Assembly: GCF_036178845.1 (NCBI RefSeq)
Contig: NZ_CP108070.1
Coordinates: 3,906,001-3,970,000 of the forward strand
Length of the DNA stretch: 64,000 bases
Source of the DNA: Streptomyces sp. NBC_00271
Lineage (GTDB): Bacteria; Actinomycetota; Actinomycetes; Streptomycetales; Streptomycetaceae
Direction of reading: 5' to 3'
The translations under genes were made by a program, and so were the position numbers. Shown piece after piece: positions 6,315 through 31,452 of this stretch. The notes beneath the pieces are model-generated. The model searched no databases, had not been told where the DNA came from, and was given only the letters and a program-made list of their open reading frames with translations. The stretch's first letter is position 1, and each line of letters starts with the position of its first letter.

Positions 6315-7604
6315 ATGCGACGTGGCATATCGATCGCCGCCGCGGTGACCGTCATCGCGCTGAGCGCGACCGCCTGTGGTGGTTCCGACGACGACTCGTC
6401 GAGCAAGCCGAAGGCCGTCGGCGACATTTCCGGGACGATCACGTACTGGGACACATCGGACGCGGCGACCGAAGCCCCGACGTACAAGGCTCTCATCAAG
6501 AAGTTCGAGGCCAAGTACCCGAAGATCAAGGTGAACTACCAGAGCGTCCCGTTCAGCGACGTCGAGCAGAAGTTCAAGTCGGCGGCGAAGAGTGGCAAGG
6601 GCGCCCCGGACGTCGTCCGCACCGACGTCGGCCTGATGGCCGAGTACGCCTCGCTCGGTTACATCGCTCCCCTCGACGGCACGATCGCGCTGAAGGACAC
6701 CTCGGACTTCAACTCGGGCCCGCTGAACACCGCCAAGTACAACGGCAAGACGTACGGCGTCCCCTCGGTCACCGACACCCTGGGTCTCCTCTACAACAAG
6801 GACCTCCTGAAGAAGGCCGGCATCGCGCAGCCGCCGACCACGTGGGACGAGTTCATCACCGACTCGAAGACCATCAAGAAGAAGACCGGGGCGTACGGCA
6901 CCTACCTCAACCCGGACTCGTACTTCCTGCTCCCGCTGCTCTACAGCAACAACGCGGACATGGCCGACACCTCGGCCAAGAAGATCACCATCTCCGACGC
7001 CAACGCGGTCACCGCGATCACCACGGCGAAGAAGATCCAGGACGAGGCGTCGATGAAGGTCGACTACGCCAACGCCTACCAGAACATGCAGACGGCGTTC
7101 AAGACCGGCAAGGTCGCCATGCTGGTCCAGGGCCCCTGGTCGGTCAGCGAGGACCTGAGCGGCAGCGCCTTCAAGGGCAAGGAGACCAACCTCGGCTACG
7201 CGCCCGTCCCGGCCGGCCCCGGTGGCAAGGCCCAGGCGCCGACCGGCGGTCACAACCTCGCGGTCTACCAGGGCTCCAAGAACCTGGACGCCGGGTACCT
7301 CTTCACCCAGTTCATGACCTCGACGGACAGCCAGGTCGAGATCGCCAAGGGCACCGGCACGCTGCCGACCCGCAAGTCGGCGTACACGGCCGAGGTCACG
7401 TCCGACGCCAAGATCGCCGGCTTCAAGCCGATCCTGGAGCAGACCGCCCGTCCGCGCGTCGCGCTGCCGCAGGTCGGCTCGCTCTTCACGCCGCTCGCGC
7501 AGAACTACGTGAAGATCCTGCAGGGCAGCGAGGACGTCAAGGCCGGTCTCGACGCCACCGCGAAGGAGTTCCAGAAGCTCCTGCCCGGCTACACCATCGG
7601 CTGA
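6315..7604 (+). CDS. malE: Maltose/maltodextrin ABC transporter, substrate-binding lipoprotein
   Basis: Extracytoplasmic receptor of the maltose importer, 429 residues. AGGAG at 6305-6309 precedes ATG 6315. A type II signal peptide with C21 (SATACGGSDDD) shows lipidation and membrane anchoring. The mature part has the family-1 solute-binding fold signatures: ITYWDTSD near the N terminus, PSVTDTLGLLYNKDLLKKAG, and VAMLVQGPWSV. It is first in a malE-malF-malG-aglA-malR series, preceded by the CTTGC cluster. No ATPase gene is present; in Streptomyces the shared ATPase MsiK, encoded elsewhere, energises such importers. It is followed by a hairpin and a long repeat, which suggests higher expression of malE than of the downstream genes. 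Confidence 0.93.
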   Translation: MRRGISIAAAVTVIALSATACGGSDDDSSSKPKAVGDISGTITYWDTSDAATEAPTYKALIKKFEAKYPKIKVNYQSVPFSDVEQKFKSAAKSGKGAPDVVRTDVGLMAEYASLGYIAPLDGTIALKDTSDFNSGPLNTAKYNGKTYGVPSVTDTLGLLYNKDLLKKAGIAQPPTTWDEFITDSKTIKKKTGAYGTYLNPDSYFLLPLLYSNNADMADTSAKKITISDANAVTAITTAKKIQDEASMKVDYANAYQNMQTAFKTGKVAMLVQGPWSVSEDLSGSAFKGKETNLGYAPVPAGPGGKAQAPTGGHNLAVYQGSKNLDAGYLFTQFMTSTDSQVEIAKGTGTLPTRKSAYTAEVTSDAKIAGFKPILEQTARPRVALPQVGSLFTPLAQNYVKILQGSEDVKAGLDATAKEFQKLLPGYTIG

Positions 7605-7639
7605 CCGGGCAACCCCTGATCCACCGGTAACCGAAGAAC

Positions 7640-7700
7640 GCGCAGCCCCGGGGAACGTTTTCCCCGCTGCCGCCCCGAACGGGGCTCCCCCGGGGCTGCG
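7640..7700 (+). terminator. Nested hairpin structure after malE
   Basis: Outer arms CGCAGCCCCGGGG (7640-7652) and CCCCGGGGCTGCG (7688-7700) enclose at least one further hairpin (GCCCCGAACGGGGC, 7671-7684) and a small GGGGAACGTTTTCCCC element. No T-tract follows, so partial termination or protection of the malE 3' end is as likely as full termination. Confidence 0.6.
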
Positions 7701-8150
7701 GTCACCGGTTCCCTCAGGATCTCGGCGCCCACCTGATCCCGGGGTCCACCAGGACCCCGGACCCCCGGATCCCCAGACCTCGGGCCCCCGGATCCCCAGA
7801 TCCCGGGCCCACCAGGCCCCTGGGGCACTGGCACCAGGGGGTGACCAGACCCCGGGTCCCGGATCCCGGATCCACCGGACCCTGGCCCCCGGGCCTCTGG
7901 ACCCCGGGCCCACCGGATCCCTGGATCCGGGCCCACCAGCCCCAAGACCGCGGATCCACCAGACCACCCGACCCACCGGAACCCGGATCCACCGGCTCCC
8001 CGGACCCCGGATCCACCGGACCCCGGGCCCACCGGATCCCCGGACCCTGGGCCCACCAGCCCCCCGGGGCCACGGGGCCACGGGCCCACCGGACCCCGGG
8101 TCACCAGATCTCCCGAGCCCCAGACCTCCGCATTTCCGCCGCGAAAGAGC
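7701..8150. repeat. Degenerate GC-rich short-repeat tract between malE and malF
   Basis: About 450 bp built from shuffled units such as CCCGGATCCACCGGAC, CCCCGGGCCCACCGG and CCCCAGATCCC. GGATCC occurs around ten times, CCACCGG at least seven times, and CCCGGG repeatedly. Many units are self-complementary, so the transcript should fold into many hairpins. The plus frame stays open and could extend MalF by over 100 residues of Pro/Gly/Asp/Thr-rich sequence, but that lacks MalF character. I treat the tract as non-coding. Confidence 0.8.
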
Positions 8151-8152
8151 CG

Positions 8153-9157
8153 ATGAGGATGACGACCGCAGCGAGCACCGAGAAGACCGACCAGCCAGCG
8201 CCCGGCAAGAACGCCGCGCGCCCCCCACGCGTTTCGGCGCTCCGGCGGTCCTGGGACAAGTACTGGTACGCCTGGGCCATGGTGACCCCGGTCGCCATCG
8301 TCCTCGCCGTCCTCGTCCTGTACCCGCTCGGGTACGGCATCTACCAGTCGCTGACCGACGCCAACGAGTCGAACGTGGCGTCCACCATCGGCGCCTTCCA
8401 CCGCCCGGCCACCTACAAGTTCGTCGGCCTCGACAACTACTGGCACGTGCTGTCGGGCGCGGACAGCGACTTCTACCCCCGCCTGCTGTGGACGGTCATC
8501 TGGACGGTGTCCTGCGTGACCCTCCAGGTCGGCATCGGCATGGGCCTCGCGGTGCTGCTCAACCGCAAGGTCCGCTTCCGCGGTTTCTACCGCGCCATGC
8601 TGATCCTGCCCTGGGCCGTCCCCTCGTTCATCGGCGTCTTCGCCTGGCGGCTGATGCTCAACTCCCAGTACGGCGTCTTCAACGAGATCATCACCGCGTT
8701 CGGCCTGCCGGCCCAGGACTGGCTCGGCACCCCGCTCGCCCAGAAGATCGCCGTCATCATGGTGAACGTCTGGATCGGCATCCCCTTCAACATGGTCGCG
8801 GTGCTCGGCGGACTCCAGTCCATCCCCAAGGAGCTCTACGAGGCCGCCGAGATGGACGGCGCCTCCCCCTGGCAGCGCTTCGTCAACGTGACGCTGCCCG
8901 GTCTGCGCCCGGTGTCGAACACGGTGATCCTGCTCGGCTGCATCTGGACGTTCAACATGTTCAACGTCATCTATCTGCTGCTGGGCAACAACACGAGCGG
9001 CGACGCCGACATCCTCGTCACCTTCGCCTTCCGCAAGGCGTTCACCGGCATCTCGGACTACGCGGGCGCGGCGACGTACGGGATCATCATCCTCGCCCTC
9101 CTGCTGGCCTTCTCGACCTTCTACCGCCGCAGCACCCTGAAGTCCGAGCAGGCGTAA
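8153..9157 (+). CDS. malF: Maltose ABC transporter permease MalF
   Basis: Inner-membrane permease, 334 residues from ATG 8153 (a second ATG is at 8159). The frame is open further upstream through the repeat tract, but the usual family length and the appearance of charged cytoplasmic sequence (STEKTDQPAPGKNAARPP) support the start near 8153; the ribosome site is weak. Hydrophobic segments begin at WAMVTPVAIVLAVLVLYPLG. The cytoplasmic EAA loop that docks the ATPase reads EAAEMDGASPWQRFVNVTLP. It pairs with MalG, whose start lies 12 bp after the stop. Confidence 0.9.
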   Translation: MRMTTAASTEKTDQPAPGKNAARPPRVSALRRSWDKYWYAWAMVTPVAIVLAVLVLYPLGYGIYQSLTDANESNVASTIGAFHRPATYKFVGLDNYWHVLSGADSDFYPRLLWTVIWTVSCVTLQVGIGMGLAVLLNRKVRFRGFYRAMLILPWAVPSFIGVFAWRLMLNSQYGVFNEIITAFGLPAQDWLGTPLAQKIAVIMVNVWIGIPFNMVAVLGGLQSIPKELYEAAEMDGASPWQRFVNVTLPGLRPVSNTVILLGCIWTFNMFNVIYLLLGNNTSGDADILVTFAFRKAFTGISDYAGAATYGIIILALLLAFSTFYRRSTLKSEQA

Positions 9158-9169
9158 GGAGCCCTCGCC

Positions 9170-10075
9170 ATGACCGCAGCAACCCACGAGTCCTCCGCGA
9201 CCGCCACCGCCGACCGGTCCGCCGTGGCCACCCCCCGCAAGGTGCGCGGCCGCGAGGAACGCAGCCTCGGCTCCTCGATCGCCCTGCACGGCACGCTGAT
9301 CGTCGCCACGGTGATCGCGGCCTTCCCCGTGATGTGGATCCTGTTCATCTCGCTCGGCCCGAAGAACGCCTGGCAGCAGCCGAGCGAGGTGTTCTCGCAC
9401 CTCAGCCTGCACAACTACAGCGATGTGCTGTCCCAGACGGACCTGCCGAAGTGGTTCCTGAACACCGTCGTCGTGGCGGGCGGCACCACCGTGCTCGGCG
9501 TCTTCCTCGCGGCGACCGCCGGATACGCGGTGTCCCGGATGAAGTTCCCCGGCAGCAGGCAGCTGATGTGGACCTTCCTGGTCACGCAGATGTTCCCCAG
9601 TATCGTGCTGATCGTGCCGCTTTATCTCCTTATGTCCGAGCTGAACCTGCTGGACAACTACCTCGGTCTGATCCTGGCGTACGCGACGACGGCGGTGCCG
9701 TTCTGCGCCTGGATGATGAAGGGGTACTTCGACACCATCCCCAAGGAGATAGACGAGGCGGGCCGGGTCGACGGGCTCACCCCGTTCGGCACGTTCTGGC
9801 GGCTGATCGTGCCGCTGGCCAAGCCGGGCCTCGCCGTGACCGCGTTCTACAGCTTCCTCACCGCCTGGGGCGAGGTCGCGTACGCCACGCAGTTCATGCA
9901 GTCCGACCACTACACGCTCGCCGTCGGCATCCGCACCTTCGCGCAGGACCAGCGGCCCGACTGGGCGTGGACCTCGGCCACGGCGATCATCATCACCCTT
10001 CCGGCGGCCCTCGTCTTCATGCTGGTGCAGCGCAGCCTGGTCTCCGGTCTGACGGCCGGAGGCACGAAATCCTGA
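9170..10075 (+). CDS. malG: Maltose ABC transporter permease MalG
   Basis: Second channel subunit, 301 residues, with AAGGAG upstream of ATG 9170. It has an N-terminal cytoplasmic stretch, about six hydrophobic segments and the EAA loop EAGRVDGLTPFGTFWRLIVP. It probably forms a heterodimer with MalF and recruits the MsiK-type ATPase encoded elsewhere. It is followed after 77 bp by aglA on the same strand, consistent with one operon for uptake and intracellular hydrolysis. Confidence 0.93.
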   Translation: MTAATHESSATATADRSAVATPRKVRGREERSLGSSIALHGTLIVATVIAAFPVMWILFISLGPKNAWQQPSEVFSHLSLHNYSDVLSQTDLPKWFLNTVVVAGGTTVLGVFLAATAGYAVSRMKFPGSRQLMWTFLVTQMFPSIVLIVPLYLLMSELNLLDNYLGLILAYATTAVPFCAWMMKGYFDTIPKEIDEAGRVDGLTPFGTFWRLIVPLAKPGLAVTAFYSFLTAWGEVAYATQFMQSDHYTLAVGIRTFAQDQRPDWAWTSATAIIITLPAALVFMLVQRSLVSGLTAGGTKS

Positions 10076-31315: not shown

Positions 31316-31371
31316 GGCGGATGACTGACGGCTGGTGGCAGGCGGCAGATAGCAGGCGGCGGACTTCAGCT

Positions 31372-31441
31372 GTCAGATATCAGGCGCCAGGCGCCAGATG
31401 TCAGATATCAGACGTCAGATGACGGATGACAGATGACAGAT
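31372..31441. repeat. Ten 7 bp tandem repeats between hmpA and nsrR
   Basis: Consecutive heptamers GTCAGAT, ATCAGGC, GCCAGGC, GCCAGAT, GTCAGAT, ATCAGAC, GTCAGAT, GACGGAT, GACAGAT and GACAGAT run from 31372 to 31441; related sequence extends on both sides. It lies between two convergent stop codons. Confidence 0.9.
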
Positions 31442-31452
31442 TTCACTAGGTG

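Follow-up and report, generated by a model that had tools for sequence, protein, structure and literature searches.

Intercistronic structures in binding-protein operons

In Escherichia coli, the malE message is stabilized by a structure that lies between malE and malF, and the REP elements of this gap are proposed to keep MalE in excess over MalFG (PMC5927463). Stem-loops located after binding-protein genes have also been described in Ruminiclostridium cellulolyticum, where they have long GC-rich stems with little or no U-run and terminate 20.7–96.1% of transcription in artificial operons (PMC9045158). Within Streptomyces, the pstS transcript of S. lividans exceeds those of the other genes of its operon, and a stem-loop of −60.2 kcal/mol is predicted between pstS and pstC (PMC2605767). 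In S. clavuligerus, 353 of the 535 structured 3' ends mapped by Term-seq are without a U-run (PMC8269248). A different class of element, the bacterial satellites with short units, consists of tandem copies of such units (PMC6749651). The Streptomyces malE-malF spacer itself is the subject of no report among the literature matches listed, a set whose coverage leaves subscription papers mostly outside.

The mal operon of Streptomyces sp. NBC_00271

The window considered here, a stretch of 64,000 nucleotides from Streptomyces sp. NBC_00271, carries on its forward strand a gene for a sugar-binding protein, malE (6315–7604, stop codon at 7602–7604), followed by two permease genes, malF (8153–9157) and, 12 nt further on, malG (9170–10075). 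The best NCBIfam matches of the three products are MalE (PRK09474.1, E-value 2.6e-28), MalF (PRK10999.1, 3.2e-45), and MalG (PRK10998.1, 4.1e-47), all under the curated cut-offs. From further matches below cut-off, the genes 3' of these three appear to be a glucosidase-like gene and then a LacI-type regulator gene. Judged by MalE identity, the named species closest to the strain are S. olivochromogenes (99%) and S. diastatochromogenes (98%). This type of MalE is sparse in the genus, being present at an E-value of at most 1e-190 in 9 of 392 genomes, the present one included.

The malE stop (7604) and the malF start (8153) are separated by a gap of 548 nt. The same genome has 45 matches to PF01547. 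For 37 of these, a permease match follows at a distance of under 1.7 kb, and at these 37 junctions the median gap is 7 nt; in 33 of them, a permease could start no more than 30 nt past the binding-protein stop. By the simple rule used to set permease starts, under which individual gaps may be wrong, malE-malF is the second-largest gap of the set. The survey drew on 84 of 137 permease matches, the rest being, by eye, distant from any binding-protein match; the eight binding-protein matches outside it, checked by eye, have either no permease within 3 kb (seven) or one at 1822 nt. The gap ends in a leader, GCGAAAGAGCCG (8141–8152, forward strand), which contains the malF ribosome-binding site and is, by eye, identical in the window and in 11 related loci (L011–L019, L022, L063).

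A conserved hairpin downstream of malE

A branched hairpin (7641–7700, forward strand) starts 36 nt past the malE stop, so that a stable hairpin stands between the binding-protein stop and the permease start. Its outer stem of 13 bp pairs 7641–7653 with 7688–7700 and encloses an inner hairpin at about 7672–7685, and there is no U-run on its 3' side. By eye, an alternative pairing is also available, in which the 5' arm (GCAGC, GGGGAA) pairs with the middle arm (GCTGC, TTCCCC) and not with the 3' arm. The hairpin ends at the start of the interval treated in the earlier note (7701) and was missed there.

The hairpin is found in all 11 distinct relatives whose MalE is at least 83% identical to that of the window (L011–L019, L022, L063). 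Of 33 loci found in one search, 21 distant ones (L023–L043) were left out; L045, L046, L047, and L064, whose gaps match those of L013, L018, L022, and L016 in both length and sequence, were counted once with them, and L050–L062 (MalE identity 47–57%) were used for gap length only. Nine of the 11 are not near-identical to the window, and in these the hairpin is 87–92% identical to it, as against 62–75% for malE third positions (in codons for shared A, G, P, T, V, R, S, and L) and 31–74% for the stretch from stop codon to hairpin, where the low values of L015, L016, and L018 are partly due to inserted inverted repeats. These extra inverted repeats, which were seen by eye, differ in sequence, and lie between the malE stop and the hairpin, indicate that the spacer gains palindromes repeatedly. 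Further away, at about 73% MalE identity (L048, L049, L065), the hairpin is absent and the match ends are 20–23 nt apart.

Across 11 aligned sequences, which include L020 (used in this structure alignment only; L021, with a hairpin of different sequence, was viewed by eye only), standard pairs occupy 99% of 198 pair cells. Two pairs are changed on both sides, a level reached by 6 of 500 shuffles. Covariation is thin because the stems are nearly invariant, and, since both covarying pairs occur in L020 alone, the evidence for constraint is mainly sequence conservation. Folding against dinucleotide shuffles gives z −1.6 in the window (12/200 as good, not significant), −1.45 in L020 (17/200 as good), and −1.9 to −4.3 in the other 11 sequences. 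These data indicate that the structure is kept by selection, with strong conservation and thin covariation.

No U-run terminator is present in 7560–8200, and the hairpin does not have the form of a canonical intrinsic terminator. A stable hairpin so soon after malE, with a long gap behind it, could nonetheless be a full terminator of malE, with malFG read from a promoter of its own. This is very improbable, as 7560–8200 lacks, besides a U-run terminator, any promoter-like site of the sigma-70 type (the type that the scan covers), and in nine relatives the 31–72 nt from hairpin to malF leave little room for a promoter. Rather, the hairpin is a candidate attenuator or stabilizer of the intercistronic class already known. 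Like the internal terminators of R. cellulolyticum, it lies 3' of a binding-protein gene and has a long GC-rich stem with little or no U-run (PMC9045158); unlike them, it is branched, belongs to a high-GC actinobacterium, and in one lineage has a repeat tract behind it, and termination is here a prediction. The S. lividans pstS-pstC junction shares with it the genus and a strong predicted stem-loop between binding-protein and permease genes, but pst is a phosphate operon, and the account of it drawn on here mentions no repeat tract (PMC2605767). With the U-run-less ends of S. clavuligerus it shares a strong GC hairpin, the mal site being known from sequence alone (PMC8269248).

The octamer tract

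Repeat, palindrome, and relative comparisons delimit a second element (7706–8104, forward strand), a GC-rich tract of 399 nt with a period of about 8 that drifts between 7 and 9 and with strongly degenerate copies. Its autocorrelation is 0.53, 0.53, and 0.51 at lags of 8, 16, and 24, compared with 0.35 expected from composition, and TRF reports periods of 8, 16, 24, and 40. Variants of the unit include CACCGGAC, CCCCGGAT, and CCCCGGGC. The earlier note had described this as about 450 bp of degenerate GC-rich repeats between malE and malF, mostly self-complementary, with GGATCC, CCACCGG, and CCCGGG cores. The tract is real, at about 400 bp within the 548-nt gap, and the cores are present 10, 7, and 8 times, respectively, along with seven copies of GGGCCC. 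The self-complementarity is borne out as well, with 27 six-base palindromes compared with 10.1 ± 3.0 in 300 dinucleotide shuffles (maximum 18). The corresponding tracts of two relatives, L011 and L012, have 16 (5.8 in shuffles, maximum 13) and 10 (5.0, maximum 12), the latter within chance. The tract is palindrome-rich largely because the unit cores CCGG, GGATCC, and GGGCCC are themselves palindromes, and a good part of its self-complementarity stems from them.

The sense RNA of 7706–8104 folds better than dinucleotide shuffles (z −3.1, 0/60 as good), as does that of 7680–8170 (z −2.81, 0/100) and that of the tract in L011 and L012 (z −2.4 and −2.9). The antisense strand, however, also beats its own shuffles (z −2.4 with 1/60 as good in the window, −2.9 in both L011 and L012), so the folding excess, for which the earlier note proposed a check of the transcript, is there on the sense strand but is not transcript-specific. 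When whole octamers are shuffled instead, z is −2.6 in the window, −2.8 in L011, and −0.75 in L012 (17/60 as good), and the excess in two of the three strains leaves room for selection on tract structure. G-quadruplexes on the template strand of the tract are not in excess over shuffles in the window (81 nt covered vs. 85.7 ± 32.1), in L011 (56 vs. 30.4 ± 23.8), or in L012 (63 vs. 37.2 ± 24.7). A search for known RNA families gave a single match, to a human lncRNA model at 20.8 bits (gathering score 40, E-value 0.12), which was taken as chance.

The sense strand is rich in C (C 0.48 and G 0.29 in the window, 0.45/0.31 in L011, 0.46/0.29 in L012). With about 550 nt of RNA without translation, such a composition would suit a Rho-loading stretch that boosts the hairpin, Rho then terminating the untranslated malE-malF RNA. 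This is quite unlikely, given that the RNA of the tract is strongly structured, that relatives manage with 31 nt at its place, and that the array of a second sugar operon (see below) is not C-rich (C 0.38, G 0.39).

The tract across relatives

When the same gap is aligned in other Streptomyces, as the earlier note proposed, the tract is missing from nine of the 11 distinct relatives and present in two only, L011 and L012 (S. olivochromogenes and S. diastatochromogenes). In these, tract identity over aligned columns is 83.3% (L011, 177 gap columns) and 88.8% (L012, 165 gap columns), while the hairpin segment is identical at 104/104 nt, malE at 98.4–98.8% (98.8% in L011), and malF at 98.9–99.5% (99.5% in L011), making the tract the fastest-changing segment compared. 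Noncoding DNA other than the tract changes here too, with indels between the strains in the intergenic region 5' of malE (68 and 42 gap columns). As in a VNTR or minisatellite, short units stand in tandem, and between conserved flanks the length varies from one close relative to another, being 399 nt in the window and 244 and 246 nt in L011 and L012 (lengths that may be off, as both are draft assemblies), with flanks 98–100% identical. An artefact of a single assembly is unlikely, as related tracts occur in these two further assemblies. The tract resembles the bacterial satellites in its tandem short units (PMC6749651); it differs in length between close relatives and, unlike the satellites described there, is strongly degenerate and confined to one locus.

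The nine other relatives have 31–72 nt between hairpin and malF in place of the tract (31 nt in L019, counted to its malF start, since its MalF match set in at residue 13 and the printed gap therefore included 39 nt of malF). Post-hairpin words of relatives, such as CACCAGAC, are similar to the unit of the tract, a likeness suggesting that the tract grew in place. At the tract's place in L063 (G236), there is a different, perfect inverted repeat, GGCGGGTTCC/GGAACCCGCC, between hairpin and malF.

These comparisons bear on two further readings of the tract. According to the first, selection maintains the tract itself as a REP-like device, which shields malE mRNA and reduces malFG expression; the position of the tract is right, and its folding exceeds shuffles in three strains and octamer shuffles in two of them. 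Its absence from nine of 11 relatives that retain the hairpin, its status as the fastest-changing segment, an antisense strand that folds as well as the sense strand, and the existence of other periodic arrays elsewhere in the genome make this reading unlikely. According to the second, the tract is translated and lengthens MalF at its N-terminus: an open frame runs from a GTG over 7841–9157, and no stop interrupts the malF frame across the tract in the window or in L012. In L011, on the other hand, there is a stop near the tract start in that frame, and the spacer measures 396 nt compared with 551 and 398 nt in the other two (stop codon included), a difference that is not a multiple of 3. Since nine relatives are also without the tract and the leader before the ATG at 8153 is conserved, an extended MalF can be given hardly any credence.

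Copy number and similar arrays

REP and BIME elements are associated with a RAYT transposase, and they are recognized by a single palindromic unit that recurs outside genes at many dispersed sites of a genome. A search of the own genome with the tract gives no second match longer than 97 query bases (the best other match has an E-value of 0.0025 over 57 bases), and the best other match of the hairpin has an E-value of 0.0088 over 38 bases. Neither element is multi-copy, and neither is a dispersed REP-like repeat, so the suggestion of a REP does not hold in the strict sense; a mobile or dispersed repeat is likewise rejected for lack of a second full copy of the tract in this genome. The mal spacer is thus like the E. 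coli malE-malF REPs in placing structured RNA in the same gap, with MalE over MalFG as the proposed result (PMC5927463), but it differs from them in that hairpin and tract are single-locus elements outside any dispersed family, that the tract is young and variable, and that the effect of the spacer on expression is here a prediction.

Tract matches at an E-value of at most 1e-6 occur in 58 of 295 Streptomyces genomes, the own one included. The loci fetched from other genomes (28 of 29 viewed by eye, L087 left out) vary in unit sequence and period, some being seemingly coding repeats, and they are read as convergent simple repeats. In a 1.2-Mb sample of the own genome, made up of 60 segments of 20 kb each, 10 of 23,700 windows of 300 bp, in three places, are as periodic as the mal tract, whose periodicity is therefore rare but not unique. 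TRF finds eight merged arrays of at least 200 bp in the same sample, some perhaps coding. A further array, at about 17380–17650 of L234, consists of degenerate C/T-rich repeats that stand, by eye, behind a hairpin at the end of an operon, 3' of its last permease gene. This third case of a hairpin with repeats points to array growth beside terminators in general. Self-complementary heptamer arrays (TGACAGA/TCAGATA/TCTGTCA) were also seen, at 31346–31445 of the window, at about 16200–16350 of L210, and at about 15310–15430 of L213; they are perhaps a dispersed family beside gene ends.

A second sugar operon with hairpin and array

The largest gap of the 37 junctions, 1010 nt, belongs to another sugar operon (L147, G000:C1:7595620–7598172; gap at L147:1132–2145). 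A strong hairpin after the binding-protein stop is followed there by degenerate units of about 26 bp that contain CGTACGACC, reported by TRF as 10.5 copies over 274 nt, with related units across about 800 nt in a repeat search. The binding protein is present at an E-value of at most 1e-120 in 51 of 199 genomes, and 30 loci were compared, the own one being included in both counts. In the 29 orthologous loci (L164–L192 include those with a covarying hairpin and a short spacer), the gap is 71–75 nt (12 loci), 99–171 nt (15), 232 nt (one), or 492 nt (one, L192, where the value is doubtful because about 125 nt past the stop there is an ATG preceded by the usual leader). In the 18 spacers of at most 110 nt that were aligned, 11 of 14 hairpin pairs are standard in at least 16 sequences, and several are changed on both sides (e.g., A-U in 9, G-C in 8, and U-A in 1), a count that comes without a shuffle control. 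Most short spacers carry, behind the hairpin, a single word like CGTACGACCTGAGGGACCGC, which is altered in L180, L185, and L188; L175, L189, and L190 contain two or three incomplete copies of it. There too the hairpin is old, and the array appears to have arisen by local expansion of the post-hairpin word.

The L147 and mal operons thus share a layout of a hairpin and then a grown spacer. Only two of the 37 junctions carry an array, the first of them being the starting finding, and a special enrichment of arrays at binding-protein/permease junctions is not shown by this survey. As arrays grow elsewhere too, the two operons are no proof of a special link with binding-protein stoichiometry.

A composite spacer

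The reading preferred here, at a probability of roughly 65%, is that the mal spacer combines a conserved hairpin, likely an attenuator or stabilizer, with a separately grown, near-neutral tract, the two parts having different histories. In the malE-malFG transcript, the hairpin would most likely act as a leaky terminator, as a block to 3' exonucleases, or as both, a role suggested by its position and conservation, and the outcome would be more malE than malFG mRNA. In the lineage of the window, S. olivochromogenes, and S. diastatochromogenes, the tract would then have grown in place between the hairpin and the malF ribosome-binding site, presumably by duplication and slippage of short words, in keeping with its restriction to this lineage and its fast change. 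It would most likely be near-neutral passenger DNA in a spacer whose length would have little effect after the action of the hairpin. As a minisatellite-like expansion specific to this lineage, the tract is extreme in size and ordinary in sort, and it probably has little function of its own. The interpretation in the earlier note, of a device for much receptor and little permease, was right about the location and the principle but picked the wrong sequence: the spacer does contain an element positioned as the malE-malF REPs of E. coli are, and this is the conserved hairpin, not the 450-bp tract.

A bolder view, and an unlikely one, is that in Streptomyces spacers between binding-protein and permease genes, the length of a fast-growing array beside a hairpin attenuator serves as a heritable, fast-changing dial that sets how much binding protein is made relative to channel. 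If so, one genome would show two settings of this dial, with gaps of 548 and 1010 nt where the median over the 37 junctions is 7 nt. For the mal operon, attention moves from the conspicuous tract to the conserved hairpin, which is the better candidate for a device that sets malE above malFG and so for the stoichiometry device of the operon. The relatives that have the hairpin alone, set beside those that have hairpin and tract, offer a natural comparison for the effect of long repeats after an attenuator.
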